From Acidobacteriota bacterium (GTDB taxonomy: Bacteria; Acidobacteriota; Terriglobia; Bryobacterales; Bryobacteraceae): 64,000 bases of DNA. Positions 26,346 to 44,870 of the stretch are shown here, in pieces. The position numbers were made by a program, and so were the translations under genes. The notes under the pieces are model-generated. The model was given only the letters and a program-made list of their open reading frames with translations. It was not told the origin of the DNA and did not search any database. How positions within the stretch are numbered: position 1 is the stretch's first letter; every line of letters begins with the position of its first letter. The DNA lies in contig JACPNQ010000047.1 of the NCBI GenBank assembly GCA_016185425.1, positions 1-64,000 on the forward strand, in the 5' to 3' direction.

Positions 26346-27251
26346 ATGATCTCCTTCCTTGACGCCAAACACTCCGCCTTCCTTGACGACCTCAACCGTA
26401 TCGACGACCGCGCCAGCCGCGCCCAGCGCGCCCTGTCGACGGGCCTCCGCATGAACACGATCTCCGACAATCCGGATCAAATCGGCGTCCTCCTCCAATC
26501 GCGCGCCGAGCTCGCCTCCACAGAGCAGACCAAAGCCAACCTGAGCCGCACCAAAACCGAAGTCGACGCGGCCGAAAACTCACTTGAAAACGCCATCAAG
26601 GCCGTCGAACGCGTCCGCGTACTCGGCGCGCAAGGCGTCACTGGTACACAAAACGCCAACAGCCGCGCGACAATCGCCGGCGAAGTCGAATCCCTGTTCG
26701 GTCAACTCGTCAACATCGCCAACACCGCCATCGACGGGCGCCACATCTTCGCCGGCTCGGCCGATCAGGTTCCCCCGTATTCCGTCGACCTCACCACCGC
26801 CTCCGGCGCCACGCCGTATGCCGGCGGCAACGCCACCCGGCAGATCCGCGATTCCTCCGGCGTCCGCCTCTCCGTCGCCCGCACCGCTCTCGAAATCTTT
26901 GACAACCCCGCCACAGGCCGCAACGTCTTCACCGCGGTCAATAGCCTGCGTACCGCCCTCCTCGCCAACGATGAGGCAGCCATCCAGACAGCCATCGCCG
27001 GCATCGGCACCTCGCTCGATCACCTCAACGAGCAACTCGCCTACTACGGCTCCACGCAAAACCAGATCGCCGGCGCTACCACCGCCGCCGGCAAGAAAAT
27101 CATCTCGCTCCAGGCCCAGATCGCCGACACCGAAGGCGCCGACCTCGCCGAATCCATCCTCGAACTACAAACCGCCTCCACCCATCGGCAAGCCGCACTG
27201 CAAGCCCAAGCGCAGGAGGACCGCCGTACCGTCTTCGATTTCATCCGCTAA
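26346..27251 (+). CDS. flgL: Flagellar hook-associated protein 3 (FlgL)
   Basis: FlgL is the second hook-filament junction protein and is flagellin-like. The 301-residue product has the N-terminal DDRASRAQRALSTGLRMNTISDNP flagellin-type helix, RHIFAGS-like DGRHIFAGSAD in the middle and a C-terminal ESILELQTASTHRQAALQ helix. It starts 8 bp after flgK and overlaps the convergent aldehyde dehydrogenase gene by 4 bp. Flagellin itself is not in the window. Confidence 0.93.
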   Translation: MISFLDAKHSAFLDDLNRIDDRASRAQRALSTGLRMNTISDNPDQIGVLLQSRAELASTEQTKANLSRTKTEVDAAENSLENAIKAVERVRVLGAQGVTGTQNANSRATIAGEVESLFGQLVNIANTAIDGRHIFAGSADQVPPYSVDLTTASGATPYAGGNATRQIRDSSGVRLSVARTALEIFDNPATGRNVFTAVNSLRTALLANDEAAIQTAIAGIGTSLDHLNEQLAYYGSTQNQIAGATTAAGKKIISLQAQIADTEGADLAESILELQTASTHRQAALQAQAQEDRRTVFDFIR

Positions 27252-28666: not shown

Positions 28667-28740
28667 ACCGCCAGACTATCGCTTTATAGTGGGAAGTGGC
28701 TTCCTCGTGTGAGGCGAATCGCACACACGGAGAAAGACCA

Positions 28741-29610
28741 ATGCACATCTTTATCGCACTCCTGTTCGCAATCGACTCCCTGCAAACCGGAACGCTCCCG
28801 CGCCAGTGGCGCACGTCCGGCCCCAACTGCCTCGAAGTCCCCGACTGGCAAGTCCACGAGTACAACCCCAACCTCTACATCATTCGCGAAAGCGGCTGTA
28901 CCAACTACGAAAAGCCCTTCCTCTACCTCTTCTTCGGGGCCGATCGCGCGTTGCTCCAGGACAGCGGCGCCGGCGACACCGATATCGACCGCCTCATCCC
29001 CACCCTCCTCGCGCAATGGGCCAAGCGCAACAACCGGCAAGTCCCGCCCCTCCTCGTCGTCCACTCCCACTCGCACGGCGACCACACCTCGGGCGACAAG
29101 AAGCTAGCCGCTCTCCCCGGTATCACCGTCGTTCTCGCGAAGCCTGAGGAGATCGAAAAGGCGCTCAACATGCCCGGCTGGCCCGAGAAGCTCGGCGTCA
29201 TCGACCTCGGAGGCGGCCGCCTCCTCGACGCCATTCCCATCCCCGGTCACGACACCGCGGACCTCGCACTGTATGACCGCCAAACGGGCCTCCTGCTGAC
29301 GGGCGACACTCTCTATCCCGGCCGCCTCTACGTCCGTAACTTCCCCGCGTACGTGAAAAGCATCGACCGTCTCGTCAACTTCACCAAGGGCTTGCCTGTC
29401 GCGCATATTCTCGGCACACACATCGAGCAGACCCGTACGCCCTTCCTCGACTACAAGGTCCGTACGGTGTACCAGCCCGACGAAGCCGTCCTCGAACTCA
29501 GCCGTGGCGATCTCCTGGAACTCCAATCCGCCCTCTCCGCCATGCAAGGCAAACCCCGCCGGGAGCAACTCTCGCGCTTCACAATCACGCCGCGGGTTTC
29601 GCTGCCCTAG
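28741..29610 (+). CDS. MBL-fold metallo-hydrolase
   Basis: The 289-residue product has the zinc site HSHSHGDH (HxHxDH type) near residue 110, the second-site PIPGHDT, LLLTGDTLYPG and GTHIEQ, in the order expected for the fold. The N-terminus (MHIFIALLFAI) may be a short secretion signal. The substrate cannot be read from sequence; beta-lactamase, thioesterase and phosphodiesterase activities all occur in this fold. The ATG at 28741 is preferred over an upstream in-frame start at 28696. Confidence 0.88.
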   Translation: MHIFIALLFAIDSLQTGTLPRQWRTSGPNCLEVPDWQVHEYNPNLYIIRESGCTNYEKPFLYLFFGADRALLQDSGAGDTDIDRLIPTLLAQWAKRNNRQVPPLLVVHSHSHGDHTSGDKKLAALPGITVVLAKPEEIEKALNMPGWPEKLGVIDLGGGRLLDAIPIPGHDTADLALYDRQTGLLLTGDTLYPGRLYVRNFPAYVKSIDRLVNFTKGLPVAHILGTHIEQTRTPFLDYKVRTVYQPDEAVLELSRGDLLELQSALSAMQGKPRREQLSRFTITPRVSLP

Positions 29611-29619
29611 AAACTTCAA

Positions 29620-31548
29620 CTACCGCAATCCCACAATCATCTGCAGGTCCGATTCCTGCCCCTCCACCTGCGTGTACAGTATCTCCTTCCCGTCCGGCGC
29701 CGCCGCCATTCCTAGGCTCAGCGATTGCTCCGGACGGTACACCTCCCGCACCTGCTTCTTCACCGCATCCCAAAAGTAAATCGCCCGCTCAGCCCTCTGA
29801 AAATACACGCCATCCTCCACAACGGCATAGAACAGCCTCCGCACCTCCGGAGCCACCATCTCCGGCGCACCACCCGCTACCGGCCTCCGGAGCAAAGGTC
29901 CGAAATTCCGCGTCTGCGTGTAGTACAGATACTTCCCATCCCGTGATTCCGTAGCCGCAAATCCACCCTCCCTCGTCACCTGCTCCGCCGCGCCTCCGCC
30001 CGCTGGCACTCTCCAGATTTCAAACCGCCCCGTCCGGTCCGAGCAGAAATAGATCCACTTCCCGTCCCGCGACCACGCCGGAATCGCGTCCGTCCCCGGC
30101 GCATCCGTCATCCGCCGCGCGGGCCCGCCGTTCGCGCGAATCACATACACATCGGTCTGTCCGTCTTCGTTCGACTCATACGCAATCCACTCCCCATCGG
30201 GCGACCACCGCGGCGACGCCGTCGTCCGTGCATTCGTAAACGTAAGCCGCCGCGCGTTCGATCCATCCCTTCCCGTCACCCAGATGTCCGACGCTCCCGA
30301 CCGGGTCGAATGAAACGCAATCTGGCTCCCGTCCGGCGAATAATCCGGATTCAAATCCGAATGTGTCGACAACGGCAGCCGCTCCGCCACCGGTGCTGCC
30401 CCGCCAAGCTTCAACTTCCAGATCTCGTGCCGCTGCGTCCGTGCCGTCGCGAAAACCACCCTCCGCTTGTCGCTCGATATCGACAGGGACAGACACTTGT
30501 CCGTCGTTTCATACACCAGCTCCGGCTTCGCGCCCGGCGTCAACCGGCTCCGCCACAGGCTCATCCCCTCTTCGCTGGTCCCCAGGGAATAGTAAATTTC
30601 CTCCCCATCCACAGTCACCGCCGTCGGACCAGTCCATTCCGGCAAGCGCAAGAGCATCCGCTCCGGTCCCACCGGCCGCAAACCATCGCCCAGCGGAATC
30701 TCATAAATCGACGTCGATCCCGGTTTCCCTCTCCCGAAAATCATCCGCTTCCCATCCGCCATCACCGCGGCCCCAGTGAACCCGAATTCCGCCGCCGGCA
30801 CCACAACGTGTACCTCGCCGTTCGTCGCCGAAATCGCCACAATCTGCGCGCTCTTCCCCAAGGACTCGATCGCTGTTAACCAGCGCCCCTCCGGCGACCA
30901 CACCAGTCCCCCCGCGACATTCGTCTCCGCGATCTTCGCCGCTTTCCCGCCGGTTGCCGGAATCAGCATCACGTCAACGCGCGGACTCGCACCTGCCCGC
31001 GTGAAGTACGCAATCATCCTCCCATCGGGCGACCACGCCGGAAACCGCTCCGCCATCACACTATCCGTAAGCCGCACTGCCCTCTCTCCATTCACCGGCT
31101 TTAGATAAATGTGTCCCGGCGATCCCTGTGGCATTCCGACATACGCAACCCGCAATCCATCGGGCGAAATCGCCGGCTGCATCTCCCATCCGTGCTCCGC
31201 CGTAAACGGCACCGCCCGGTTCTCCGCCCTCGCCGGGCGCCACGCCAGCGCCAACGCTGTCGCTACAACACACCCAAGCAGCCCCACGCCGATCCACTCA
31301 ACCCGTGACGCCCGCGTCCCTTCCTCCGCCGTCGCCGGCATAAGCTGCCCGCTCTTCTCGCGCCACCACGTATCCAGTTCTTCCTTATAAGCGAACACCG
31401 GCCCCGCACGGTCCGGCCCCAGCCTCCGCACCGGCAGCCCTTCGGCTTCCCATCGCTGCACCGTACGAACGCCCTTGCCCAGGTACGCCGCTATCTCTTT
31501 CCAGGAATCCAGCCGGTCCGGCCGCGCGGGCGTAGTTCCCTCTGCCAT
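29620..31548 (-). CDS. Helix-turn-helix protein with membrane segment and TolB-like PD40 beta-propeller
   Basis: The 642-residue product begins with a MerR/excisionase-type DNA-binding domain (SWKEIAAYLGKGVRTVQRWEAEG, residues 12-34), then a membrane segment near residues 83-100 and repeated PD40/WD40-like blades (AISPDGLRVAY, WSPDGRMIAY, YSPDGSQIAF, WSRDGKWIYF). Such proteins, a cytoplasmic HTH tied to a periplasmic propeller, are common in Acidobacteriota and may be one-protein signal transducers. The ATG at 31548 is favoured because GGGAGG lies 6 bases before it; a longer frame to 31797 lacks support. The ligand is unknown. Confidence 0.86.
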   Translation of the reverse strand: MAEGTTPARPDRLDSWKEIAAYLGKGVRTVQRWEAEGLPVRRLGPDRAGPVFAYKEELDTWWREKSGQLMPATAEEGTRASRVEWIGVGLLGCVVATALALAWRPARAENRAVPFTAEHGWEMQPAISPDGLRVAYVGMPQGSPGHIYLKPVNGERAVRLTDSVMAERFPAWSPDGRMIAYFTRAGASPRVDVMLIPATGGKAAKIAETNVAGGLVWSPEGRWLTAIESLGKSAQIVAISATNGEVHVVVPAAEFGFTGAAVMADGKRMIFGRGKPGSTSIYEIPLGDGLRPVGPERMLLRLPEWTGPTAVTVDGEEIYYSLGTSEEGMSLWRSRLTPGAKPELVYETTDKCLSLSISSDKRRVVFATARTQRHEIWKLKLGGAAPVAERLPLSTHSDLNPDYSPDGSQIAFHSTRSGASDIWVTGRDGSNARRLTFTNARTTASPRWSPDGEWIAYESNEDGQTDVYVIRANGGPARRMTDAPGTDAIPAWSRDGKWIYFCSDRTGRFEIWRVPAGGGAAEQVTREGGFAATESRDGKYLYYTQTRNFGPLLRRPVAGGAPEMVAPEVRRLFYAVVEDGVYFQRAERAIYFWDAVKKQVREVYRPEQSLSLGMAAAPDGKEILYTQVEGQESDLQMIVGLR

Positions 31549-31556
31549 CACAAACC

Positions 31557-31614
31557 TCCCACGGGGACATTGCAATCGAAACTCGCCTCTCGCAGCGGCA
31601 CTTCCCACGGGGAC
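31557..31614. promoter_or_regulatory. Paired TCCCACGGGGAC sites in the divergent promoter
   Basis: TCCCACGGGGAC occurs at 31557-31568 and 31603-31614, 46 bp apart, between the HTH-propeller gene and the TPR gene. Each copy has TCCC and GGGA arms around ACG. They are candidate binding sites, possibly for the adjacent HTH protein. Confidence 0.4.
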
Positions 31615-31781
31615 CTTGGCCGCATGCCTGTGTCCCCAGACGCCGCACTCTCTCCGCAAGTACCTAAGCCGCGCACGCCATCGCGCGCCAACCCGCGCCA
31701 ACATCTGCCACGCCTTGTTTTGTTGCGTTTGGCGCTTCCCGGCGCTTGCCCGGCGCGGCGAACATCCCGCACCCTGCCAGC

Positions 31782-32579
31782 ATGAGAGTCGCCGCATTCC
31801 TGCTCACTATTTGCACATGTCTCGCCGCCGATTGGCTGGACGCCGCACGCAAACAAGGCGCGGCTCTTGAACGCGAACGCCAATGGAGCGAAGCCGCCGC
31901 GGTCTACCGTCACGCGCTCGAACGCGGCGGCGATACTCTCTCTCCCTCCAGCCGCTTCGTCCTCCGTATGTCTCTCTCGGAAACGGCTTTCTATCAGGGC
32001 GACTACATCCAATCCTGGCGCTGGCTCCGCGACGCCGAAACCGGCATCCCCGCCACGCCCGAAGCTCGCGCCCAGTTCCTCAACGCCCGCTGCGCCCTCT
32101 ATTCCGTCGAAGGCAAACTCACCGCGGCCGAGCATGATCTCACCGCCGCGCTTGACGCCGCTCGCCTCGCAGCCGCGCCCCTCACCATGGCCGCCACGCT
32201 CCATAACCTCGCCAGCCTCGAAGCTCACCTCGGCGCTCTCCCCCGCGCCGAAGAGCACGAACATAACGCCATCGCTCTCTGGCGCGACAACCTCGGCGCC
32301 AACCATGAATACGTTCGCCGCGCCTGGATCAGCCTCTCCACCATTCAGGGTCTCCGCGGCAACTGGTCCGGCGCCGCCGAAAGCCTCCGCTACTCGCTCG
32401 CCGTGGCCGAATCCCCAGACGCCCTCGCCAACTACGCCGTCGTTCTCGATCGCCTCCACCGCGGCAAGGAAGCCCGTGAAATTCGCAAACGTCTCCCTCC
32501 CTCCCCCGCGGCCAACGGCCTCGTCGATCTCAAGTCTCTCCGCCAGGGCCCGGCCCGCGAACAAATCGTCGTGCGCTAA
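31782..32579 (+). CDS. Exported tetratricopeptide-repeat protein
   Basis: The 265-residue product has a signal peptide (MRVAAFLLTICTCLAAD) and about five helix pairs with TPR spacing (EAAAVYRHALERG, LHNLASLEAHLG, EHEHNAIALWRD). It resembles the scaffold or kinesin-light-chain-type repeats and is probably a periplasmic binding protein. No enzyme domain is present. It is divergent from the HTH-propeller gene. A longer upstream start at 31746 is possible but would bury the signal peptide. Confidence 0.78.
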   Translation: MRVAAFLLTICTCLAADWLDAARKQGAALERERQWSEAAAVYRHALERGGDTLSPSSRFVLRMSLSETAFYQGDYIQSWRWLRDAETGIPATPEARAQFLNARCALYSVEGKLTAAEHDLTAALDAARLAAAPLTMAATLHNLASLEAHLGALPRAEEHEHNAIALWRDNLGANHEYVRRAWISLSTIQGLRGNWSGAAESLRYSLAVAESPDALANYAVVLDRLHRGKEAREIRKRLPPSPAANGLVDLKSLRQGPAREQIVVR

Positions 32580-32629
32580 CTGCAACATCCACTCCAGAAG
32601 GAATACGTTGCAAGCGCCGCTTCGTTCCC

Positions 32630-34819
32630 TTATTTCGACTCGCTCACTTCGAGCACCGTCCGTATCCCCGTAAGCGGCGGCGCGAACAACGACATCTGCC
32701 CGGGCTCCGCGAATACGACCGCAAAATCGGCCGGTGAAAACGCCCGCTCCAGACGCGCCGCGAACGTTGTCCGTAACAGCCGCGCATACCGCTCCACGTC
32801 GTAGTCCCGCCTGTCGCCCGCCGTGTCCTCCTCATCCACCACGCCGCCCGCGCCCGCCTGTGTGCGATACACCCGCACCCGGTCGCCCGTGCTCCATTTG
32901 TTCCGCCCGCTCGCCAGCATCGCCTCATAGGCCAGCTCCCGCCGCGCCTCCCGTGTCTCCCCGTACTCCTCCGGCGACTTCGTCAATCGCACCCTCGACG
33001 ACACATCGAACGTCGGCAGCTCTCTCCGCCGCAGCGCATCGAGCGTTTGCAGGTACGCCTCGCGCACCCCCGCCACATCCCCAGCCAGCAGCCGCTCAAT
33101 CGACCGCCGCAAAAACGTCTCTCCAAACGGCTCCGCCCGGCTCGATCGGAACGCCACTCCCCGCAGCAGCAGCTTCCCGTCATACGTCAACAGCGCATAG
33201 TTCTTCGGCTCATGCGACAACATCGCCGCAAATCGTCCGTCAAATTCTAAATGGACCAACTCCGGCAGCAGCGCCGCCACCTCCGCCACCACTCGCCGTT
33301 CATCTCGTTCGGACCAGTTCTCCGGCACCGCGAAGTACACGCCGTCCGTATCCGCCTCCAATAGCGTTACTCCGCGGGCCGCCAGTTCACGGCACATCGT
33401 CTCCAGCGTCTCGCGCCCGCGCCTGGTTACCTCGTTCGCCGCGTGAACATCCGCAAACCGCGTCAATCCGCCGCCAGCGGCCAGGTATCCATACGCCGAA
33501 TTCACCACCAGCTTCATCGCCGCCGACAGTGCCTCCTGCGTATACCGCTCCACCGATCCCGCCGGCGCCGCCTTCCCCGCAGCTTTCGCCGCTAGCCGGG
33601 TTTCCACCAGCCGGTCCACCAGAGCCAGCAACGCTCCCAGGTGGTCGCGCGCCGGGCCGATGCGATACGCCCGCATTAATGACGGATACAGGCTCGCCAC
33701 GTCCGCCTTCACCACGCGTTGCGCCACGCCGCTCGCGAACAGGTGCAGCGCCGCCCCGCTATGCGGCGTGCCGTCACCTTCTTTGTGCGCCGGTAGCGCC
33801 ATGCCGGCGCGCAAATACGCGCGCACCAGTAGCGGATCGATCACGCCCGTCGCAGCGCCCGCATCGGCAAGGCGTTCATACCGGCGTGGCGCCATTCGCG
33901 CCAGGGCGAATGCGGCCCCACCCAGCAGCCGTGCCACGCCCGCCACCTCTTCCACGTCGGAAGCGGCATATCTTTTCACGCGTTCCGGATCGCGTTGATA
34001 GACCGCAAAGATCCGGTCGCCGCGAATATACTCTCTGTCTTCTTTCGCCAGGCCAAGGTGCCGCGCCACGGTCTTCAAGCCATGTTCCGGCAGCTCGCGT
34101 GTAGCGAAGTCATACCGCAGCACCGCATCGAGCGTGTCAATCAACTCCCGCCCCGGCGCCACAAACCGGAACCGTCTTCGCGATGGCCGCTGCCGTAACC
34201 CCGGCCCCCCAATCCGCCCAAGCCCAAGCGGCACACCCAAAATACTCGCGCGCCGTTCCAGGAACGGCAGGTCGAAGCCGTGGAGGTTATGGTTCTCAAT
34301 CACATCCGGATCAATGGCGCGAACACGTTCGACCAGCCGCCGGATCAAGTCCTTCTCCTCGCCCTCAAGAATTTCCGTCACCCCCGAAGGCTCCCGAATC
34401 GCGATAATAAAGATCCGGCTATTCTCTGGCGAAAGGCCTGTGGTCTCGAGGTCAAACTGCATCCGCCGAAGCTGATTAAAGGAGAGCCCGCGAAAGTAGT
34501 TGCGCCCTGTAGCGACGAGATACTGTTCCTCCGGCGGCAGCACCAGTGCGGATTCGCTTTTCCGAAAACCCCGCAAATCCGGAGCCGTGACCAAAAACCG
34601 CAACTCTCCCGGCCCCGCAAGCTCCCGCACGGCAGCCCTCTCCGGCACAGCATCTAAGCGGTCAACGAGCATCCAAGGCGAGAATCGCTCTTGCTCACAG
34701 ATCAGCTCCCCGGACCCCGGCAGCCGCCGCCAGACAGTAGCCCGCCCATCGCTTTCCGCCCAGACAGAAACAATCCCCGGCGTCTCATCCCATCCCCAAA
34801 GCCACTCGTCCTCAACCAT
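32630..34819 (-). CDS. Family B DNA polymerase (Pol II-like) with 3'-5' exonuclease
   Basis: The 729-residue product has an intact exonuclease (ExoI FDLETTGLS, ExoII IENHNLHGFDLPFL, ExoIII YAASDVEEV) and an intact polymerase (motif A DVASLYPSL, motif B KLVVNSAYGY, motif C ADTDGVY). Both activities should therefore work. Family B enzymes in bacteria (E. coli Pol II) act in repair and fork restart. It is somewhat shorter than E. coli Pol II. I use ATG 34819; GTG 34840 adds seven residues and has no better ribosome site. It abuts the gap where strand composition switches. The dinB/imuBC genes are not nearby. Confidence 0.9.
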   Translation of the reverse strand: MVEDEWLWGWDETPGIVSVWAESDGRATVWRRLPGSGELICEQERFSPWMLVDRLDAVPERAAVRELAGPGELRFLVTAPDLRGFRKSESALVLPPEEQYLVATGRNYFRGLSFNQLRRMQFDLETTGLSPENSRIFIIAIREPSGVTEILEGEEKDLIRRLVERVRAIDPDVIENHNLHGFDLPFLERRASILGVPLGLGRIGGPGLRQRPSRRRFRFVAPGRELIDTLDAVLRYDFATRELPEHGLKTVARHLGLAKEDREYIRGDRIFAVYQRDPERVKRYAASDVEEVAGVARLLGGAAFALARMAPRRYERLADAGAATGVIDPLLVRAYLRAGMALPAHKEGDGTPHSGAALHLFASGVAQRVVKADVASLYPSLMRAYRIGPARDHLGALLALVDRLVETRLAAKAAGKAAPAGSVERYTQEALSAAMKLVVNSAYGYLAAGGGLTRFADVHAANEVTRRGRETLETMCRELAARGVTLLEADTDGVYFAVPENWSERDERRVVAEVAALLPELVHLEFDGRFAAMLSHEPKNYALLTYDGKLLLRGVAFRSSRAEPFGETFLRRSIERLLAGDVAGVREAYLQTLDALRRRELPTFDVSSRVRLTKSPEEYGETREARRELAYEAMLASGRNKWSTGDRVRVYRTQAGAGGVVDEEDTAGDRRDYDVERYARLLRTTFAARLERAFSPADFAVVFAEPGQMSLFAPPLTGIRTVLEVSESK

Positions 34820-35306
34820 ACCGCCGCCGCGGACCTCCACCAGTCAGTGTCCCACTGGTGTCATCACCGCCCGCGCCTCGATCTCCTGCGCGGTAACTAT
34901 CCAACTGACTGCTCACCGACACAACGTCGGGCAGCGCCGGGACACATCGTATCCGGCGTCCTGCGCAACGAGCGAAGAGCGAACAACATGCAGTCTTAGA
35001 CGACGCCACTCGTCACAGCGTTTGAAATACTTTTACGGATGCCTTCCCCGATTCAGGAAAGACTTGCCGCAGTCGCGAAAGCGGCTCAATCGGGATACAC
35101 GGCCGGAGCGGATCATCGCCGGCAATCTCACACCCGCTCTTCGCACACCCTATATATGCCGCACGCGCGTCTTCGACAGAATCGTAGCGAGTCGCGATAC
35201 CACCATTCACAATATATGCACCTGCATCGTCGCGGTACTCGCCGACCCCAATGGCGCGATGCACTCGACTGTATTATCAATCACTCGCCGCCCGCCTCGC
35301 GGGCCG
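34820..35306. other. Gene-free gap at the strand-composition switch
   Basis: This 487-bp stretch separates polB (transcribed leftward) from the 3' end of the CehA-like gene. I see no supported gene; a minus frame at 35013-35264 lacks family features. The plus strand is C-rich up to about 35.2 kb and G-rich from about 35.3 kb. AT-rich patches are TATATATGC (near 35150), AATATATGC (near 35211) and TATTATCAAT (near 35272). The best DnaA-box-like string, CCATTCACA (35203-35211), matches 7 of 9 positions only. Confidence 0.6.
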
Positions 35307-36806
35307 TCATTGGAGGAGTTGCAGCGCTTTCTCGCCGGCGTCGAAGAACTGGCGCCGTTGGTTGTCGCTTGCGAAGGGCAAGTTGGCGGCGCGGTAGTAT
35401 TCGAGCTCGGCTTGCCAGCGTTTGGCGAGGCTGGCGCGGATGGCGGCGTCGGGAGGCGGATTGCCGATGTATAGCGGGTTCGTGTGGGCTTGCAGTTGGG
35501 GCTCACCCTCCACCTTCTTCAGGCGGGCATGAGCGGCGAACCATGCAGCGTCCGCCGGCACGCTGACGGTGAGTTTTTTGCCGTCGCGAGCGGTGGCAAC
35601 GACTTTGCCGTTGCGAATGATTTCGAGCGTCTCGATCGGTTGATGGAAAATGGCGGTGGCGGTGATGGTGCTGTTGACTCGTGTGATTTCGACGAAGGGA
35701 CCGTTGCTTACGACGACTTCGCCACGCTTCACAGCAGCGGCCCAGGCGGTGTAGGCGGATTGGCCGGGTTGGGCCTTGACGAGGGTGCGCTCGGGGCCGA
35801 GCAGTGGAATGTGTTTCGGCCAAGGCATGAAGCGGCCAAGAGGAACGGGAAAGTCGCTGCCGGCGATACCAGTGACGCGGAGTCCGGCGTTGAGGAGCTC
35901 GTACCACTCGGTGTTCCAAAGTTTGCCGAATTGGAAGACTTCGAGGAAGTCGATGTTGCCCAGGGCGAGGTCCATGAGGAGAGTGGAGTGGGGCATGGAG
36001 CCGTGGAAGTGGGCATATCCGGTGAGAGCTTTGGCCTGGCGGCCCTTTTGAAACAGCAGTGACGGGAAGGGCGATGCGGCGGGTTCGTTGGCATACATGC
36101 TGCCGACACTCAGGGGACGGATGAGCTCGCTGCCGCCCAGCATGTTGATGTGACCGTAGTATTCGGAGCGCGATTCCTGTCCGGAACGGATGGAGTAGCC
36201 CGCAGTTCGCGCCTCGCCGGCGGGGCCGAATGCATACTGCGGGGCCGCGTCAATCTGCCGCTGGAGTTGGAGGAAGTTGGCGACAGAGAGGTCTTCGGCC
36301 TGAAGCCATTTGAGGAACGTTTCGTTCTCGGCGGCGGTGCGCGGGAGGTGGATATGGTCGTCACCGGAGAGCCAGTCCTTCGTGTTCCCGGCCCAACGTT
36401 CGAGGGTGATTGGAAGGGTTTTCGATTCACCGGGCTTAAGGGTGAAGTTGACGGCGACCGGGGTGAAGAAGAGACCGCGGTAGGCTTCAATGCGGTAGTC
36501 GCCTGGGGGGAGCTCGAAATCGGCTTTACCGGTGAGAAGGAAAAAGTGCGACTGCTCGTTGTTCGTGACTTCGAGGGTTTGCGGATTGGGCGTGCGGCGC
36601 CAAAGCGTATCGCGGTAAAAGAGGTCGATTTTGAGGGGAAGGATGGCATCGACCGGGTGGAGCCGGAAGGGGCGGTCGTTTTTAAGGAGGTAGATACGGG
36701 CGGGGTGGTTCGCCGTGATTTGGAGATGGGCCGCGGGCGAGCTGTGGCGGAGTTGGGCTATGGCGAGGGTGACGGAGAGGGCGAGGAGCATCCACACGCG
36801 GGGCAT
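35307..36806 (-). CDS. CehA/McbA family metallohydrolase, exported
   Basis: The 499-residue product has a signal peptide (MPRVWMLLALSVTLAIAQ) and a PHP-like C-terminal two-thirds with GDDHIHLPR (metal-binding DxH), GYAHFHG and AGSDFPV, as in the CehA/McbA group, whose known members hydrolyse carbamate pesticides. The natural substrate here is unknown. The N-terminal 150 residues form a beta-sandwich-like region. The ATG at 36806 is chosen for the signal peptide; an in-frame GTG at 36848 is possible. No Shine-Dalgarno sequence is obvious. Confidence 0.83.
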   Translation of the reverse strand: MPRVWMLLALSVTLAIAQLRHSSPAAHLQITANHPARIYLLKNDRPFRLHPVDAILPLKIDLFYRDTLWRRTPNPQTLEVTNNEQSHFFLLTGKADFELPPGDYRIEAYRGLFFTPVAVNFTLKPGESKTLPITLERWAGNTKDWLSGDDHIHLPRTAAENETFLKWLQAEDLSVANFLQLQRQIDAAPQYAFGPAGEARTAGYSIRSGQESRSEYYGHINMLGGSELIRPLSVGSMYANEPAASPFPSLLFQKGRQAKALTGYAHFHGSMPHSTLLMDLALGNIDFLEVFQFGKLWNTEWYELLNAGLRVTGIAGSDFPVPLGRFMPWPKHIPLLGPERTLVKAQPGQSAYTAWAAAVKRGEVVVSNGPFVEITRVNSTITATAIFHQPIETLEIIRNGKVVATARDGKKLTVSVPADAAWFAAHARLKKVEGEPQLQAHTNPLYIGNPPPDAAIRASLAKRWQAELEYYRAANLPFASDNQRRQFFDAGEKALQLLQ

Positions 36807-37117
36807 TGGGGTTAGGGTAGCAGGGGGCGCGGTCGGTTCGATCACCACCGGGCCGCTGGGACTCCCGGTTTCTGTGATGGTGACACGGAACCAAGACGAC
36901 CTGAATACCCTTCTTCGCGGACAACTTGCTTCACGGTCAACTCGGTGATGCCTCGCCTAATGAAGCCGGCCGGCCATCCTCTCTTTTACGGCGGTTGATC
37001 GACCCGAAGCTGATCGCGTACCTTATCGCCTATGTAGCTGGCCCGCTTTCGGCAGCGACCAGTGGCGCCGCATTGCGCGTAGAAGGCGGGCTGGTGCGAT
37101 CGGTCGCATAGCAAGCC
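36807..37117. other. Gap between CehA-like gene and permease
   Basis: This 311-bp stretch lies downstream of the permease stop and upstream of the CehA-like start. It must hold the promoter of the latter, but I cannot pick a convincing box. I see no gene, repeat or RNA structure. Confidence 0.5.
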
Positions 37118-39712
37118 TCACTCGTGCCGCAGGGCAACGAGCGGATCGAGTCTCATTGCCCTGCGGGCGGGGACGTAGCAGGCGGCGATGGCGACCGCCG
37201 TCAAAAGGAGCGAGACGGTAATGAAGGTCAGCGGATCGGTGGAGGTGACTCCATATAGCAGGCCGGCTGCCAAACGAGTCGCTCCGATCGCGCCGATGAG
37301 ACCTATGCCGAGACCGGTCAAGCTCAGGAGCAGTCCCTCGCGGATGATCAGCCGGAAGATCTCGCCTGCTTGCGCGCCGACGGCAAGACGGATTCCGAGC
37401 TCCCGCGTGCGCGCCACGATGGAGTATTGAATCAGCCCGTAGATTCCTATCGCCGCCAATAGAAGCGCCACAGCGGAGAAGCCGATCAGCAGCGCCGCCT
37501 GAAAACGGCGCTGGGAAAGCCCGGCGTCAACGCGGTTTTCCAGCGCCGTGATCCTATACACCGGCGTGCGCGGCTCAACATCGTGCACCGCGCTTTGTAT
37601 CGCGCCCGCCATTTGGGCCGGGTTGTCGAGTACCGTTCGCACGAGCAGCGTCACGAGCCGCGACGGGTTTTGCGCCAGCGGCTCAAACATCTGTGGGATC
37701 GGCTCGTTCTCCAGATTCTGGCGGCGCATGTCGCCGACAACACCCACAACGGTGAACCATGGCGCGCTGGAATCTTCGCCGCCGGGCTTGAAGCGCTTAC
37801 CAATTGCTTCCAACCCCGGCCAAAGACGGCGAGCCATAGCCTCGTTGACGATTGCGACGCGCGGGGCGGCTGCGTTGTCGCCGGCGTTGAAGAAACGGCC
37901 GCTACGTAATGGCGTGCCAATGGTCTGGAAGAATCCGGGGCTGATTTCATCGGCGCGGAAACGGAGGCGGCCGGAGTGCGGAGTGGCGGCGCCTTCGGTG
38001 GTAATTACACGCTCCGGGTTGCCGCCGATGAACAGGTCGCCAATGATGCCCGCACTCTCAACACCGGGGAGCGCTGCGATTTGTTCCAGGATGCGGTTGA
38101 AGAGTTCGGGCCGCGGGGAAGGCGCGGAGAGTTGGACAGAGAGTACGTGCTCCGGACGAAAGCCGGGGTCGACGTTGTGAATTGCCCGGAGACTGCGAAT
38201 GAAGAGGCCGGCGCCGGCGAGGAGGACGATGGCCATCGCGAACTCGGCGACGACGAGCACGCGGCGGATGCGGCCGGCGGCGCGCATTCCCGGGTTACGG
38301 GGTGACGTTGTGATTGCGGGGGCGAGCCCGACGAGGACTCCTGTGAGCAGGCAGAGGACGAACGTCCAGGCCAGCGCTTGCGGATTGAGAGCGGCATCGT
38401 TGAGACGGACAAGCCCGGCAGGTTGTAGAGCCAGGATGACGCGAATGACGGCGTCGGCGACTGCGAGTCCCAGCAGGCCCGCAATTGTGCCCAGCGTAAG
38501 ACTTTCGACGAGGAGTTGACGGGCGATCCGGGTGCGGCTGGCTCCGATGGCTACACGAATGGCCATCTCCCTGCCTCGCGCCACACTCCGGGCGAGCGAG
38601 AGGCTGGCGACATTGGCCGCGGCGATCAGGAGGACGCAAAAGACAGCGCCGGCGAGCATCCACAGGGCCGTTCGCGACGCCGGGCCTGTGACGTGAAGAG
38701 CCAGCGGCATGAGGCTGATGCCGCGGTTGCGCGCGGACGGCGGCGCTTGTTCGTCCAGGCGGCGGGCGAGCGCGGTCATTTCCGTCTGCGCCTGCTCGAT
38801 GGATACGCCGGGCTTGAGCCGGCCGAGAGCGAACCACGTCTCGGCACCGTTAACGCCTTGCCGAGCTTCCCAATCGGGGAAGAGGGTGTGCGGTTCCCAG
38901 ACATCCGTTGTAAACGGTTCGAAGTGATATTTCGCGGGCAGGATGCCGATGATGCGCGATGGTTTTCCGTCGAGTTCGATGGATGCGCCAATAGCTTCGG
39001 GCGAACCGGCAAAGCGGGACTGCCAGAAACGATGACTGATGAGTGCAACGCGCTCGCGACGGCTGGCCTCCTCCTCGGAAAAAGCTCTTCCGAGGGCTGG
39101 TTGAAGGCCCAGGAGCGAAAAGTAATTCGGGGATATGCGGACAGCGCTGATTTGTTCCGCGGCGGCGGGACTCGTGAGGGTGAGCGACAGCGGATCGGCG
39201 ACGGCGATATCGGCAAAGGAGGAACTTTGGGCGCGCCACTGTTCAATGTTGCGGTAGGCGGATCTGCCTTCGCGGGCGGCTTGGCCGGGGATCTCCGTCC
39301 AGAGCATGACCAACTGCCCAGGTTCCCGGAAAGGAAGGGGTTGTAAAATGACCGCATTGAGCACGCTGAACATGGCCGTGTTCCCGCCGATTGCGATGGC
39401 GAGCGTTGCGACGGCGGCGATGGTGAAGGCGGGATTCTTGCGGAGAGTGCGGAGTGCGTAGCGGATGTCCTGCGCGACGGTTTCGATGAATGCAAAGGCT
39501 CGCCGCTCCCGGTGGGTTTCCTTCATTGGCGCAATGGCGCCGAAGCTGCGAAGCGCGGCGTATCTGGCGCCGGCCGGACTCATCCCGGCTTTGCGGTTGT
39601 CCTCGATCTGCATTTCGAGGTGGAAGCGCACTTCGTCTTCGAGCTCGCGTTCGAGGCGGCCGCGCAGAAGGAGGCCGCGAAGGCGGGCAGCGATCACGCT
39701 AGGCCAACTCAT
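37118..39712 (-). CDS. ABC transporter permease of the ADOP type (FtsX/MacB-like), long form
   Basis: The 864-residue product is an acidobacterial duplicated orphan permease: an N-terminal prefix domain (LERELEDEVRFHLEMQIEDN), then two MacB/FtsX units each with a periplasmic domain and the membrane segments FTIAAVATLAIAIGGNTAMF and AVALLLAAIGIYGLIQYS. It ends LDPLVALRHE, the family tail. No ATPase gene is adjacent, hence orphan. The ATG at 39712 overlaps the end of the padR gene by 14 bp, so the two are translationally linked. The transported substrate is unknown. Confidence 0.93.
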   Translation of the reverse strand: MSWPSVIAARLRGLLLRGRLERELEDEVRFHLEMQIEDNRKAGMSPAGARYAALRSFGAIAPMKETHRERRAFAFIETVAQDIRYALRTLRKNPAFTIAAVATLAIAIGGNTAMFSVLNAVILQPLPFREPGQLVMLWTEIPGQAAREGRSAYRNIEQWRAQSSSFADIAVADPLSLTLTSPAAAEQISAVRISPNYFSLLGLQPALGRAFSEEEASRRERVALISHRFWQSRFAGSPEAIGASIELDGKPSRIIGILPAKYHFEPFTTDVWEPHTLFPDWEARQGVNGAETWFALGRLKPGVSIEQAQTEMTALARRLDEQAPPSARNRGISLMPLALHVTGPASRTALWMLAGAVFCVLLIAAANVASLSLARSVARGREMAIRVAIGASRTRIARQLLVESLTLGTIAGLLGLAVADAVIRVILALQPAGLVRLNDAALNPQALAWTFVLCLLTGVLVGLAPAITTSPRNPGMRAAGRIRRVLVVAEFAMAIVLLAGAGLFIRSLRAIHNVDPGFRPEHVLSVQLSAPSPRPELFNRILEQIAALPGVESAGIIGDLFIGGNPERVITTEGAATPHSGRLRFRADEISPGFFQTIGTPLRSGRFFNAGDNAAAPRVAIVNEAMARRLWPGLEAIGKRFKPGGEDSSAPWFTVVGVVGDMRRQNLENEPIPQMFEPLAQNPSRLVTLLVRTVLDNPAQMAGAIQSAVHDVEPRTPVYRITALENRVDAGLSQRRFQAALLIGFSAVALLLAAIGIYGLIQYSIVARTRELGIRLAVGAQAGEIFRLIIREGLLLSLTGLGIGLIGAIGATRLAAGLLYGVTSTDPLTFITVSLLLTAVAIAACYVPARRAMRLDPLVALRHE

Positions 39713-40070
39713 CGGAAAAGCTCCTGGGGCCGGCGGTGAGGAAGCGCTCGATGGTGGACGACATGCGGCGCCAATCTTTCGTTTCCCGGGCGAGGCGGCG
39801 GCGGCCAGAGGCGGTAATGGAGTAGAACTTGGCTTTGCGATTGTTATCCGACGCTCCCCACTTCGCGTCAACCCAGCCTTCCTGTTCCATGCGGAGCAGG
39901 GCGGGATAAAGGGTGCCCTGGTTGAGTTGGAGGAGGTCTTCGCTGATCTGTTCGATGCGGCGGGCGATGCCATAACCGTGGAGGGGACCGAGGGCGGCGA
40001 GCGTGCGGAGGACGACAAGGGTGAGGGTGCCTTGGAGGACGCCGGCTTTGGCGGGTTGTTCGTTCTTCAT
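39699..40070 (-). CDS. PadR family transcriptional regulator
   Basis: The 123-residue product has the PadR winged helix: GTLTLVVLRTLAALGPLHGYGIARRIEQ, then NQGTLYPALLRMEQEGWVDAKWG and a YSITASGRRRLARE wing end. PadR proteins usually repress a neighbouring transporter and respond to small ligands. Here it leads the ADOP permease gene and overlaps it by 14 bp, the standard pairing in this phylum. The ATG at 40070 is chosen because the family starts just before this motif. Confidence 0.92.
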   Translation of the reverse strand: MKNEQPAKAGVLQGTLTLVVLRTLAALGPLHGYGIARRIEQISEDLLQLNQGTLYPALLRMEQEGWVDAKWGASDNNRKAKFYSITASGRRRLARETKDWRRMSSTIERFLTAGPRSFSDELA

Positions 40071-40137
40071 TTGGCTATCTACAGGAACATGGTAGCGGAG
40101 GCTTATGTAGGTAAGCAACAGGGGGAGTGAATGTCGC

Positions 40138-40154
40138 AACACGAAGTTCGTGTT
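40138..40154. promoter_or_regulatory. Palindromic operator of the first PIN toxin-antitoxin module
   Basis: AACACGAA and TTCGTGTT form a perfect 17-bp palindrome with a single central G, 11 bp before the antitoxin start. A further half-site AGTTCGTG lies at 40161-40168 on the start codon. Antitoxins of this kind commonly repress their own operon, so this is the likely binding site. Confidence 0.65.
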
Positions 40155-40165
40155 ACACTGAGTTC

Positions 40166-40399
40166 GTGCTTAAGAATGTGACGATCACTCTCTCCGAAGA
40201 GGCCGCGCATTGGGCACGAAAAAAAGCCGCCGATGAGAACACGTCGGTCTCGCGCCTGGTTGGGCGCATGATCGAGGACCAGATGCGGCTCGGCGATGCC
40301 TATTGGCAGGCGTACGAACGGTGGAAGAAGCTTCCCGCCAGTGGGGAGAAGAGTGCCAAGAACCGGCTTAGCCGGTCTGAATCGCATGAACGGCGATAG
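40166..40399 (+). CDS. VapB-like ribbon-helix-helix antitoxin
   Basis: The 77-residue product begins with the ribbon strand KNVTITLSEEAAHWARKKAADENTSVSRLVGRMIEDQM, written here in two parts as KNVTITLSEEA and NTSVSRLVGRMI, a CopG/Arc-type dimer. The tail would wrap the toxin. The start is GTG at 40166; a GTG at 40127 is open but would place the palindrome in coding sequence. It overlaps the toxin gene by 14 bp. It is a type II module and independent of its neighbours. Confidence 0.82.
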   Translation: MLKNVTITLSEEAAHWARKKAADENTSVSRLVGRMIEDQMRLGDAYWQAYERWKKLPASGEKSAKNRLSRSESHERR

Positions 40400-40841
40400 G
40401 CTGTATTTCGTTGACACAAACGTCCTTTTGTACGCTTGTGCGCAGGTTGAGCGGGACAAAGCGGAAGTGGCAAGACGTTGGCTCGATGTGTTGTGGAAGC
40501 AAGGCACCGGAAGGCTCAGTTGGCAGGTCCTGCATGAGTTTTATGTGAATGCGGTGCGGAAAATGGCCGTCCCTCGTGAGGACGCGCAGGCAAGGGTTGA
40601 GCTACTCATCGCCTGGAGCCCGATCGATACCACCGCGGGGCTGGTCAGGCGCGCATGGGAGTGGTCCGATTCGGCGGCGCTATCCTATTGGGACGCGCTG
40701 ATCGTGGCAGCGGCGGAACGGCAGGGATGCCAGTACCTGTTAACGGAAGACATGCAGGCAGACCGCAAATTCGGCGACGTACTTGTGGTGAACCCATTTG
40801 CAATGCGTGCAGAACCGTCGAGGAGACGAGGAGCACACTAA
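40386..40841 (+). CDS. PIN domain ribonuclease toxin (VapC-like)
   Basis: The 151-residue product has the PIN acidic residues in FVDTNVLLYA (Asp near residue 9), a glutamate in LHEFYVN and the Asp pair in SYWDALIVAAA and LLTEDMQ. These make the metal site of RNA-cleaving VapC toxins. The ATG at 40386 is preferred over a frame opening at 40296 because the PIN fold starts there. It forms a pair with the antitoxin gene it overlaps. The RNA target is not known. Confidence 0.87.
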   Translation: MNGDRLYFVDTNVLLYACAQVERDKAEVARRWLDVLWKQGTGRLSWQVLHEFYVNAVRKMAVPREDAQARVELLIAWSPIDTTAGLVRRAWEWSDSAALSYWDALIVAAAERQGCQYLLTEDMQADRKFGDVLVVNPFAMRAEPSRRRGAH

Positions 40842-40913
40842 TAACAACGTCGATGAACTGTGCGAGGAGTTCCGGCGCGGGAACTTTTCGCGCTCGAATC
40901 CGTCTAATTGCGC

Positions 40914-42146
40914 ATGACGCGGAGAGACTGTCTCTTACTCGCAACGGCAGGGGCGTATGCGCAGCCGAAACCGGCTAGCTGGCGCCAATGGGGCGGACCG
41001 AACCGGGATTTTCAAGTTCCCGACAGCCCGGCGATCAAGGCCAAGTGGCCTGCGTCCGGTCCGAAAGTGGTGTGGAAACGCGCGTTGGGCGACGGGTATA
41101 GCTCTCCTTCGATTGATAACGGCGTCCTGTACACGATGTACGCCAGCCCGGGAGGGACGGCGACGATCGCGGCGGACGCGGCCACCGGCAGGACGATCTG
41201 GGAGCAGACGGCGGCCGCCAACTTTCGCTCGGAAGCGCCAGACATGGGCCACGGGCCCTACGCGACACCGCTGATTGCCACGGACCGTATCTTCACCGCC
41301 GGGGTCACAGGGCGGATTGAGTGCCGCGCGCGGAAGGATGGAGCGCTGCTCTGGAAACAGGAGCTTTGGAGCGAGCATCGTGGGACGCGCCTGGCGTACG
41401 GGTATGCGTCGAGCCCTATTGCGTTCCGTGACACGATCATCATGCCCTGCGGTGGAAAGGGCAAGTCGCTGATGGCATTCCGCCAGTCCGACGGAGCGAT
41501 TGCCTGGGCGGCGAACGACTTTCCGAACGTGTACTCGTCGCCGATACTCATCAGCGTCGACGGCTTGGAACAGTTGGTCGCACTCATGGATGGCTATGTA
41601 TTCGGCGTCAACCCGCACAATGGCGACCTGCAGTGGAGGATCCCGTTCAAGGCGAGCTACAGCATCGCGGTCGCGTCGCCGGTCTGGGCGCCGGGGAATC
41701 TGCTCTTTGTGTCGTCGGAATACGATGCCGGCACGAAGGTCATCAAGCTGGAACGGAAGGGCATGCAGACCGAGGCTAAGGAAGTATGGTCCGCGAACCG
41801 GCTTCGCCTCCATCATGGTAACGCGATCTGCCACAACGGCACGATCTATTTTTCGAGTGGCGGCAAGGGTTCTGTCGCTGTTTTGTCGGCAGTGGACATC
41901 GCGACCGGCAAGATCCACTGGCAGGATCGCGTGATTTCAAAAGCCTCTTTCGTGTGGGCCGATAACAAGCTGATCACGCTCGACCAGGACGGCAATTTGA
42001 TGCTGGCGCAACCGAGTCCGCAGGGCTTTCAGGTTCTGGCGAAGGCCGAGGTGTTGACGAACCTTGCGTGGACGCCGCCTGTGCTGGCGGGTAGCCGGCT
42101 TTATCTGCGGGACCGTAAGTCGCTACTGAGTATTGAGTTGGGTTAG
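40914..42146 (+). CDS. Exported PQQ-binding-like beta-propeller protein
   Basis: The 410-residue product has a short signal (MTRRDCLLLATAGAYAQ) and repeated propeller blades with the pattern AxDxxTGxxxW (ADAATGRTIW, DGALLWKQ, DIATGKIHWQD), as in PQQ-like/BamB-type propellers. It begins WRQWGGPNRDF, a common feature of planctomycete and acidobacterial members. No active-site calcium or cysteine pair is seen, so PQQ binding is not shown and a scaffold role is equally likely. It ends 190 bp before an ADOP permease gene. Confidence 0.86.
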   Translation: MTRRDCLLLATAGAYAQPKPASWRQWGGPNRDFQVPDSPAIKAKWPASGPKVVWKRALGDGYSSPSIDNGVLYTMYASPGGTATIAADAATGRTIWEQTAAANFRSEAPDMGHGPYATPLIATDRIFTAGVTGRIECRARKDGALLWKQELWSEHRGTRLAYGYASSPIAFRDTIIMPCGGKGKSLMAFRQSDGAIAWAANDFPNVYSSPILISVDGLEQLVALMDGYVFGVNPHNGDLQWRIPFKASYSIAVASPVWAPGNLLFVSSEYDAGTKVIKLERKGMQTEAKEVWSANRLRLHHGNAICHNGTIYFSSGGKGSVAVLSAVDIATGKIHWQDRVISKASFVWADNKLITLDQDGNLMLAQPSPQGFQVLAKAEVLTNLAWTPPVLAGSRLYLRDRKSLLSIELG

Positions 42147-42175
42147 GCGTGTCCTTGTGCAGAACATCGAACAAA

Positions 42176-42206
42176 GATTAAGGTTGGATTAAATTGGTCT
42201 TTGACA
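42176..42206 (+). promoter_or_regulatory. GATTAA direct repeats with a TTGACA box
   Basis: GATTAA occurs at 42176-42181 and 42187-42192, 11 bp (one helical turn) apart, followed by TTGACA at 42201-42206, 130 bp before the permease gene. I see no clear -10 box, so this is a weak promoter call. Confidence 0.3.
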
Positions 42207-42336
42207 CGGTTTTTGCGGCTGAAGGAACAGTTAGCGTGGTTTGCACGATTCGCGCAACCGCCGGCTCTGACGCTTCAGCGTCCGTATTCGGTAAATTACC
42301 TGTAACCGGAGCGGCGCTCGCGAGTATAAGGCAGGT

Positions 42337-44769
42337 ATGCGACTGCTGTCTTCCGACTTCCGCTATATCATGCGCGATCTGCTGCGGCGCCCGGGATTCA
42401 CGATCACGGCCGTGCTGTCGCTTGCGCTGGGCGTAGGCGCGACAAGCGCGGTGTTCAGCGTTATTTACGCGGTACTTATCAATCCGTTTCCCTATGCGGG
42501 CGCGGACCGGATGATGCAGCTCAGTTTGATGGTGAAGGCCGGGCAGTACCGCTATCCCGGCTTGAGCGGCCCGCAGATCGAGCAGATTCGACAGGCAAAG
42601 AGTGTCGAAAGCGCCGTGCCCGAAGATGGCTGGAATCTCACGACAACGGACGGCGACCTGCCGGAAGACGTGGCGGCGGGGTATATCTCCGCGAACGCGC
42701 CGAATCATTGGGGCATTCCGGCATTGAAGGGCCGTTGGCTGGTTCCCTCCGATGGCCCGCCGGGACAGGAGCCGGAACGAGTGGTGGTGCTGGGGTATCG
42801 ATTCTGGCAACGTTACTATAACGGCGACGAAGGCGTTGTGGGCCGCACGATCCAGCTTGTGCGGAAGAACTACCAGATCGTGGGCGTGATGCCGCCGCGG
42901 TTCCGGTGGCGCGAGTCGGACATTTACGTGCCGCTGAAGATGACGATCGATCCGAACGTCTATTACGGAATGACGCTGAAGCTTCGTCCCGGCGTGACGG
43001 CCGCGCAGGCGAACGCCGAACTGCAACCGATACTGGAGCAGTTCGCCAAGCAGGCGCCGGACCGCTATCCGGACAGCTTCCGGGTGACGCTGCGAAGCAT
43101 CACGGAGTTGTACGCAAAGCCGCTGGGGCCGAAACTGTACCTGCTTTTCGGCGCTGTGGCGTCGCTGTTGCTGGTGGGGTGCGCAAACGTCTCCATCCTG
43201 CTGCTGGCGCGGGGTACGCAGCGGCAGCATGAGCTTGCGGTCCGCAGCGCGCTGGGGGCCGGGCGCGGCCGGATTATCCGGCAACTATTGACGGAGTCGC
43301 TGGTGATTGCGACGGCGGGCGCGGCGCTGGGCGTGCTGATTGCGTGGAAGAGCCTTGCGCTCCTGATCGCGTGGATTCCGGCAAATTCCTACCCGGCGGA
43401 ATCGGTGATCGAGATGAATCTGCCGGTACTGCTGTTCAGTGTTGTTCTGGCTGCCGCGACAGCCATTGTGTTCGGTATTTCGCCGGCGCTGCAGCTTTCG
43501 CGGCCGGACGTGGGACGCGTGATGCAGTCGAGCACGCGGCGGATCATGGGAAGCGCGCACGGCAAGCGCACGCATCGCGTGCTGGTCGCGGCGCAGGTGG
43601 CGTTGACGCTGCTGATGCTGACGGCGGCGGGCGCCGCGGCCAAAGGGTTTTTGCGGTTGGTGAACGCCGATCTGGGTTATAACCCGCACTATACGATGTC
43701 GCTGCCGATACCGGTTCACGAGAATACCTATCCGGCGTGGAAAGAGCGATCGGAGTATTTCGAGCAGATTCGGGCAAGGGTGGCGGCGATGCCGCAGGTG
43801 GAGTTGGCGGGTATCTCGACGAACGCTACGCCGCCCGCCAACGGCGGAGACAGCCGCATTGAAATTGCGGACAGAAGCGATGTGGAGAAGCCGAACGTAC
43901 GCGTGAACTTCGTGAGCCCCGAGTATTTCCCTGTGTTGCGGATTCCGCTTGTGGATGGGCGGCTTTGGGATCGCGCCGAGACGATGCGCGGCGCGGCGCT
44001 GGCGATTATCAACGAGACCATGGCCAAGCAGTATTGGCCGAACGGGGATGCGATCGGGCGCCGTTTCCGGATTATCGGGATGAAGAATGAGCCCCCCTAC
44101 GCGCCGGCGGCTGCCGGTAGCGACGGATGGATACAGATCACCGGCATAGCCAGGGACGCTCGTAACGACGGCCTGCGGAATGCGATTAAGCCGGCTGTCT
44201 ATGTGCCCTTTTCGCTGCGCATGCGGATGTTCACGCAGATTCTGGTGCGCACGCGTGTGGCGCCGCTTTCCATGCTGCGGGAGATACGCGCGGAGATCGT
44301 GCAGATCGACCGGGAACAGCAGGTGATGCGCGTGCGGGACCTGGACGAGTGGATCCAGAACCTTCCCGAGTACTCGCAGCAGCGGCTGGTGGCTATGCTG
44401 TTCGCGCTGTTTTCGATTCTGGCGCTCCTTCTGTCGGCCGCCGGTCTGTACAGCGTGGTTTCGTACGGAGTGGCGACGCGGACGAACGAATTCGGGATAC
44501 GGATGGCATTGGGCGCAAAGGCGCGCGACGTTGTCCGAATCGTGCTGGCGTCCACGATTGTGAATGTGGGAGCAGGGTTGGCGACGGGCGTCGTTTTGAG
44601 CGTACTGTTCGACAAGTTTGCGGCGGAGTGGGTGACGGAGAGCTCGCGGGATCCGATGATTCTTGGCGGGGTTACTGCTTTGCTGCTTGGCGTGGCGGGG
44701 TTGGCGTGCGTGATTCCGGCGCGCCGCGCCGCGGCGGTGGACCCGATGGAGGCGTTGCGATACGAATAA
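42337..44769 (+). CDS. ABC transporter permease of the ADOP type, short form
   Basis: The 810-residue product starts with DFRYIMRDLLRRPGFTI followed by the membrane stretch ITAVLSLALGVGATSAVFSV and has two FtsX-like permease units (second membrane block near residue 690) ending VDPMEALRYE. The PadR-linked prefix domain of the longer paralog at 37-40 kb is absent and no padR gene is adjacent. No ATPase is next to it. Together the two permeases show a family expansion typical of the phylum. Confidence 0.92.
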   Translation: MRLLSSDFRYIMRDLLRRPGFTITAVLSLALGVGATSAVFSVIYAVLINPFPYAGADRMMQLSLMVKAGQYRYPGLSGPQIEQIRQAKSVESAVPEDGWNLTTTDGDLPEDVAAGYISANAPNHWGIPALKGRWLVPSDGPPGQEPERVVVLGYRFWQRYYNGDEGVVGRTIQLVRKNYQIVGVMPPRFRWRESDIYVPLKMTIDPNVYYGMTLKLRPGVTAAQANAELQPILEQFAKQAPDRYPDSFRVTLRSITELYAKPLGPKLYLLFGAVASLLLVGCANVSILLLARGTQRQHELAVRSALGAGRGRIIRQLLTESLVIATAGAALGVLIAWKSLALLIAWIPANSYPAESVIEMNLPVLLFSVVLAAATAIVFGISPALQLSRPDVGRVMQSSTRRIMGSAHGKRTHRVLVAAQVALTLLMLTAAGAAAKGFLRLVNADLGYNPHYTMSLPIPVHENTYPAWKERSEYFEQIRARVAAMPQVELAGISTNATPPANGGDSRIEIADRSDVEKPNVRVNFVSPEYFPVLRIPLVDGRLWDRAETMRGAALAIINETMAKQYWPNGDAIGRRFRIIGMKNEPPYAPAAAGSDGWIQITGIARDARNDGLRNAIKPAVYVPFSLRMRMFTQILVRTRVAPLSMLREIRAEIVQIDREQQVMRVRDLDEWIQNLPEYSQQRLVAMLFALFSILALLLSAAGLYSVVSYGVATRTNEFGIRMALGAKARDVVRIVLASTIVNVGAGLATGVVLSVLFDKFAAEWVTESSRDPMILGGVTALLLGVAGLACVIPARRAAAVDPMEALRYE

Positions 44770-44870
44770 CTGAGAGATTTTGTCGCGGTATGTAGAGAAT
44801 GTCCGTTGGGCTCCGACTCTCCCATGAAACGGCACTAACCGGGTGCCAGAATTGAAAGGAGCACGACGTT

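Follow-up and report, generated by a model that had tools for sequence, protein, structure and literature searches.

A sharp strand-polarity switch in an Acidobacteriota genome and its possible relation to multi-site replication initiation

According to a 2023 review, all bacteria use a single origin per chromosome (PMC10331603). Multiple bacterial origins have been suggested from nucleotide skew (PMC3269012) and considered possible, if unproven (PMC4403523), and an experimentally supported exception is seen in cyanobacteria with irregular skew, which replicate independently of DnaA from multiple sites (PMC7198777). As pointed out for SkewDB, a skew profile with several peaks may reflect origins, inversions or faulty assembly (PMC8941118). 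Here we describe a C-to-G switch in strand composition from an Acidobacteriota genome, which is possibly a variant of multi-site bacterial replication and not an oriC.

The multi-origin cyanobacteria (Synechocystis PCC 6803, Nostoc PCC 7120 and dnaA-less species; PMC7198777) resemble this genome in their many start sites, shown there and inferred here, and in having no single V-shaped skew. They differ in their irregular skew and flat marker frequency, whereas here a strong skew repeats every ~65 kb at fixed, conserved places and dnaA and its boxes are kept. The human N-domains, or replication fork polarity domains (PMC3320577), also display a skew of alternating sign, in which the upward switches are interpreted as initiation zones and are separated by near-linear declines; however, they are megabase-sized and eukaryotic, and their asymmetry of a sharp rise and a slow fall is not significant here. 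An ordinary bacterial oriC shares the C-to-G polarity with this locus, but here there are no boxes, no dnaA and many copies. Archaeal multi-origin chromosomes (Sulfolobus, Haloferax) are alike in carrying several skew minima per chromosome. Their origins are few, and are served by Orc1/Cdc6 initiators and the boxes of these, in contrast to ~100 sites here and a switch with no initiator gene beside it.

The strand-polarity switch and its gene neighborhood

The window, that is the whole 64,000-nucleotide stretch analysed, consists of bases 1-64,000 of contig C29 (73,475 bp) from a genome of 6.64 Mb in 47 contigs that is 93.7% complete. On its plus strand the GC skew ranges from -0.23 to -0.32 over 22-35 kb and from +0.05 to +0.24 over 35-64 kb; along C29 it is ~-0.3 up to 34 kb and ~+0.15 beyond 36 kb. 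The 5-kb skew jump at 35.3 kb (+0.27) is the largest among the contigs read whole, and the window switch is a real, sharp C-to-G change (Table 1). The original prediction held that the left side is C-rich and the right side G-rich in genes of either orientation, and that third codon positions of plus-strand genes flip from C to G. Both claims are borne out by the plus-strand third-position skews, which are -0.417 in plus genes (n=17) and -0.431 in minus genes (n=9) to the left of the switch, and +0.260 (n=13) and +0.351 (n=14), respectively, to its right. Given that the sign is alike in plus and minus genes on each side, the switch is independent of gene direction.

Table 1. Coordinates of the switch, its arms and its flanking features in the window
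Feature	Position	Strand	Remarks
C-rich (lagging-like) arm	1..35298	+	skew ~0 at 1 kb, deepening to -0.3 at 27-33 kb; gene-strand independent
Divergent DNA polymerase family B gene (polB, 736 aa), left flank	32630..34840	-	DNA_pol_B E 1.2e-12
Gene-free gap, contains or abuts switch	34841..35306 (466 bp)	.	no called gene, tRNA or Rfam family
Change point of G-C	35289..35342 (2-log-unit range)	.	maximum likelihood 35,298 = cumulative-skew minimum
G-rich (leading-like) arm	35298..64000	+	continues to C29 end at 73,475
CehA/McbA-family metallohydrolase gene, right flank	35307..36848	-	order and orientation as in G003

The gene-free gap that had been reported at this place is confirmed, and its sequence has no similarity to G003, an independent assembly from the same genus, or to the other contigs read. 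The adjacent polymerase gene is likewise of the kind announced, namely family B, but divergent, and its product scores below the cut-off of the DNA polymerase II models. It is kept at the same place in G003, G010 and G004. The neighbors of the switch are polB and the metallohydrolase gene, with neither dnaA nor a typical oriC neighbor gene among them. Elsewhere in the window, positions 1-900 hold a Gly/Ala/Ser-rich, repetitive open frame showing several internal repeat matches, which occurs at the same place in G003 (C12 79.5-80.2 kb), and positions 1528-10128 hold a Type VI secretion-type cluster coding for a TssM/IcmF-like protein (334.9 bits, cut-off 388), followed by two protein-kinase-like genes.

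The absence of dnaA and of good DnaA boxes from the switch also agrees with the earlier description: no box with at most one mismatch is present in 34-36.5 kb, the best matches there carrying two mismatches, and dnaA is found as a single full-length copy at C35:147.7 kb, on a contig other than that of the window. Beside dnaA there are 2-6 DnaA-box matches across the genus, versus ~0.5 in scrambled controls, and parS-like clusters lie ~26-33 kb from dnaA in G003, G009, G015, G016 and G017. An ordinary DnaA/parS origin region probably exists. The parS-like sites read TGTTCCACGTGGAACA and not the usual TGTTTCACGTGAAACA in G001, G003, G004, G006, G009, G010, G013 and G015-G018; the canonical form has no match with two or fewer mismatches in the window's own genome. 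These observations bear on the proposal that the gap is the chromosome's single oriC, to which we assign a very low probability: it would account for the correct polarity and for this switch being sharper than any other detected in the genome, but the gap has no dnaA, DnaA boxes or AT-rich element, boxes are instead present at dnaA, and there are many other minima. Thus, of the earlier origin reading, the origin-like direction and the transcription independence stand, while its identification with the one chromosomal origin does not, given that dnaA, its boxes and, in relatives, the parS sites are elsewhere and that other switches of the same sign occur at about one per 66 kb.

Genes for RNase HI and RecG are both present in the window's genome. 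Ectopic initiation of the R-loop- or RecG-related (cSDR) type through loss of rnhA or recG was rejected on these grounds, and the known laboratory routes to such initiation are hence not indicated. As a separate observation, no full-length RecG match over the cut-off is seen in G020, G022-G025, G027 and G028 (genus g3 of another family). The best matches in that genus cover ~217-608 of 629 positions, in open frames of ~1200 aa that look like Mfd; judging by these matches, recG may be missing there, while the window's genus has it.

Repeated skew waves along the genome

The skew reading covered 1.117 Mb of contiguous sequence (C22, C29, 260 kb of C35 and 420 kb of C30) together with 34 stretches of at most 20 kb on other contigs, or ~26% of the genome. 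With cumulative-skew minima called at a threshold of 250, the contiguous part contains 17 minima, i.e. one per 66 kb, and the sign of the skew alternates repeatedly, with the bias swapping between G and C at intervals of about 30 kb irrespective of gene orientation. Among the switches are those at C22:245 kb and C30:145 kb. If the remainder is alike, extrapolation gives ~100 such minima genome-wide. The absence of a global skew minimum here had been put forward as what would refute an origin; by this test the single-origin reading fails and the many-origin reading survives. The skew autocorrelation is -0.31 at 24-40 kb and +0.12 at 56-72 kb. The skew often varies smoothly over tens of kb and not blockwise, and upward switches exceed downward ones in sharpness by a margin that is slight and not significant (N-shape test, P 0.05-0.27). 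The net skew of the long contigs is close to nil (-0.02 to +0.03), such that no replichore-scale signal is visible.

In a set of 980 genes, the share of the variance in fourfold-site skew that is due to gene strand is 0.000, whereas the mean of neighbors on the opposite strand (5-10 kb) is a predictor of it with r=0.74. Genes are almost evenly divided between the strands, 51.9% being on the leading one. The skew affects every codon position, position 3 most strongly, as well as intergenic DNA. That positions 1 and 2 and intergenic DNA shift in the same direction, but less, is as expected if mutation, not protein selection, drives it. At fourfold sites of plus genes, G and C are exchanged almost exactly between G-rich arms (G 0.56, C 0.23) and C-rich arms (C 0.57, G 0.225). 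The G-rich strand is slightly T-rich in intergenic DNA and slightly A-rich at fourfold sites, and hence simple C deamination is not the whole explanation.

A skew caused by transcription or gene orientation, or else an assembly artefact, is the least credible of the explanations considered and is refuted by the gene-strand analysis and by the ortholog correlation given below. Extrema do drift toward divergent gene pairs, which occur at 7 of 16 minima, though this is expected from first-codon-position bias and from how extrema are defined; orientation explains 0% of the skew, and the same pattern is present in several separately named assemblies. No common sequence element was detected at the minima: no shared k-mer survives correction for the number of tests, and there is no AT-rich dip or element. 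DnaA boxes (at most one mismatch, within 1 kb) number zero at 35,298 and three at the dnaA locus, and 13 of 16 minima are without any; at switches other than dnaA itself they are absent or single. ADOP permease genes were considered as recombination substrates at the switches and rejected, since 2 of 17 switches have one within 1 kb (expected 0.9, P 0.23). We found no description of regular skew waves in a bacterium in the literature searched.

Conservation and turnover of the switches

The nearest named relatives of the genome, several of which come from lakes, are metagenome-assembled Bryobacterales (Acidobacteriota). Contig C12 of G003 is colinear, apart from indels, with C29 and C30:3-46 kb, 107 kb in total, with protein identities between the two genomes of mostly 75-92%. 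In this block, window positions 1..35298 correspond to G003:C12 43-78 kb, with the skew mirrored. Both polB and the metallohydrolase gene keep their order and orientation in G003, where the intervening DNA amounts to ~7.7 kb versus 466 bp in the window; the G003 skew minimum, at 43,301, lies inside this segment, flanked by the same genes as in the window. Absence of the G003 segment may account for how extremely sharp the switch is in the window. In G010 the minimum falls at the equivalent of ~43.5 kb, upstream of polB, while in G014 the switch is 0.6 kb after the 3' end of the same metallohydrolase gene, where an ADOP permease begins; judged by eye, this permease looks equivalent to the ADOP permease at the G003 switch. 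The next upward switch, 62 kb away in the colinear block, is also kept in both genomes (C30:35.8 kb, G003:106.4 kb). Thus, the original prediction's alternatives of an inversion breakpoint and an assembly join are both contradicted: the flanks keep their order and orientation in G003, and G010 is also colinear and switches at the orthologous place. The inversions and assembly faults listed for SkewDB are, on this comparison of genomes, not supported for the window switch.

Per-gene fourfold skews of 63 orthologs correlate with r=0.91 between the window's genome and G003. Fourfold identity is 0.53-0.56, versus 0.45-0.46 expected from composition, which corresponds to ~0.9-1.0 substitutions per fourfold site; such a correlation at near-saturated sites indicates that something holds the skew pattern in place. 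The fourfold skews to the left and right of the switch are -0.52 and +0.47 in one species and -0.56 and +0.50 in the other, and C<->G exchanges are nearly balanced (379:446 and 358:311), so that in both genomes the skew is at equilibrium on either side of the switch. The skew left over from an inversion would be expected to have drifted toward one sign; equal and opposite skews in the two species argue against an inversion breakpoint, an assembly join or a fossil pattern. For G017 and G008, the other pair compared, the correlation across 34 orthologs is r=0.96, and the skew falls smoothly along 55 kb. We also observed that in G003:C12 43-64 kb (window 14-35 kb), right of the switch, fourfold G is 0.73-0.81 versus 0.10-0.14 for C in G003, G004 and G010.

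At other loci the species differ. The rapZ-side switch is common to the window's genome, L190 (G002) and L195, but in L187-L189 (the clade of G004, G003 and G010) the rapZ locus is uniformly G-rich and keeps no switch; some switches are thus lineage-specific and turn over between species. A single origin combined with many inversions, in which each arm retains its pre-flip skew, would explain why the sign differs between species at some loci. It is also favored by the position of rapZ, which lies at C35:105.7 kb and in relatives (L189/L190) adjoins what is C35:37.4 kb here, implying a 68-kb inversion in the window's genome; this inversion ends near the upward switches at C35 41.9 and 107.4 kb, with gene order broken at 107.4 kb. 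However, an inversion between two initiation zones would keep the skew pattern, so the C35 case is compatible with initiation zones, though not proof of them. Further, C29 and C30 are colinear with G003 over 107 kb with both switches kept, inherited skew on one side should largely have relaxed at ~0.9-1.0 substitutions per fourfold site while both species are equal and opposite, and the skew often changes gradually over tens of kb and not in blocks. We accordingly regard many inversions as an improbable cause of the waves, and for the window switch an inversion origin is already contradicted.

Waves are present in G003, G008, G014 and G017 of the window's genus, and strong skew in G005, but none is seen in the parts read of G022, a closed genome (180 kb), and of G026 (60 kb), which belong to another family of the same order. 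In the surroundings of rapZ the median RMS skew is 0.116 in relatives whose RapZ identity is 77% or higher versus 0.050 in those further away, a few exceptions being moderately skewed. The wave-less relatives are nearly free of skew, which counts against multi-site initiation, as the genus would then require a strong strand asymmetry in addition to many start sites.

Initiation zones as a candidate explanation

A fixed strand-polarity switch has strong sequence evidence. That the asymmetry arises from replication and that forks set out from the switches is our proposed reading of it, as is the way in which they would be initiated. An abrupt, gene-independent C-to-G change at a fixed place can be read as the trace of bidirectional replication, and its repetition every 65 kb would then translate into ~100 zones. 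We propose, at roughly even odds on the sequence data, that 35.3 kb is a fixed fork-direction switch and one of ~100 initiation zones. Such a zone would be up to a few kb wide, with the prevailing fork direction reversing in it; ~100 of these, ~65 kb apart over the 6.6-Mb chromosome, would each send out forks bidirectionally that converge between zones, and strand-specific mutation would enrich the leading strand in G to produce the alternating C-rich and G-rich arms. Since the zones are without DnaA boxes, initiation there would not depend on DnaA-box clusters, and might be, for example, of a recombination or restart type, as in multi-origin cyanobacteria. The zones would coexist with an ordinary oriC/ParABS region near dnaA. 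Further points against the zones are the lack of a common motif, AT-rich dip or DnaA box at the minima, the non-significant difference in sharpness between upward and downward switches, and the nearly even division of genes between the strands. The conventional DnaA/parS region, along with the species differences in switches, leaves multi-site replication inferred and not shown.

The main rival is a non-replicative strand-biased mutation or repair process acting in fixed 30-kb arms, with the switches as its boundaries, for instance domain-wise repair, or else long-tract resection or break-induced synthesis that starts from recurrent break sites. Its probability is modest, but higher than that of the other alternatives: it fits the mutational character of the skew (silent sites strongest), the fixed and conserved boundaries, the lack of an origin motif, the coexisting ordinary dnaA/parS region and the nearly skew-free state of wave-less relatives. 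Conversely, we know of no strand-biased process with alternating polarity; deamination of 3' overhangs at two-ended breaks would be expected to give the opposite, G-to-C, switch; and break-induced synthesis would in effect equal replication initiation.

Returning to the initiation zones, their extension to the whole genus is a somewhat more tentative proposal than the zone in the window. Under it, a genus of free-living Acidobacteriota, many from lakes, would replicate a 6-9 Mb chromosome from ~100 conserved, box-less zones ~65 kb apart, in an almost eukaryote-like layout with dnaA and parS kept. Replication from many sites rather than a single one would be very unusual for a bacterium, and the waves predict the exact places to look for them. 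If replication is the cause, the waves would be, as far as the literature searched shows, the first sequence signature of fixed multi-site initiation in bacteria; if it is not, they would point to a hitherto undescribed strand-specific mutation process acting in fixed 30-kb arms. In both cases, origin calling from skew would fail in this group, as would skew-based tests of leading- versus lagging-strand genes.
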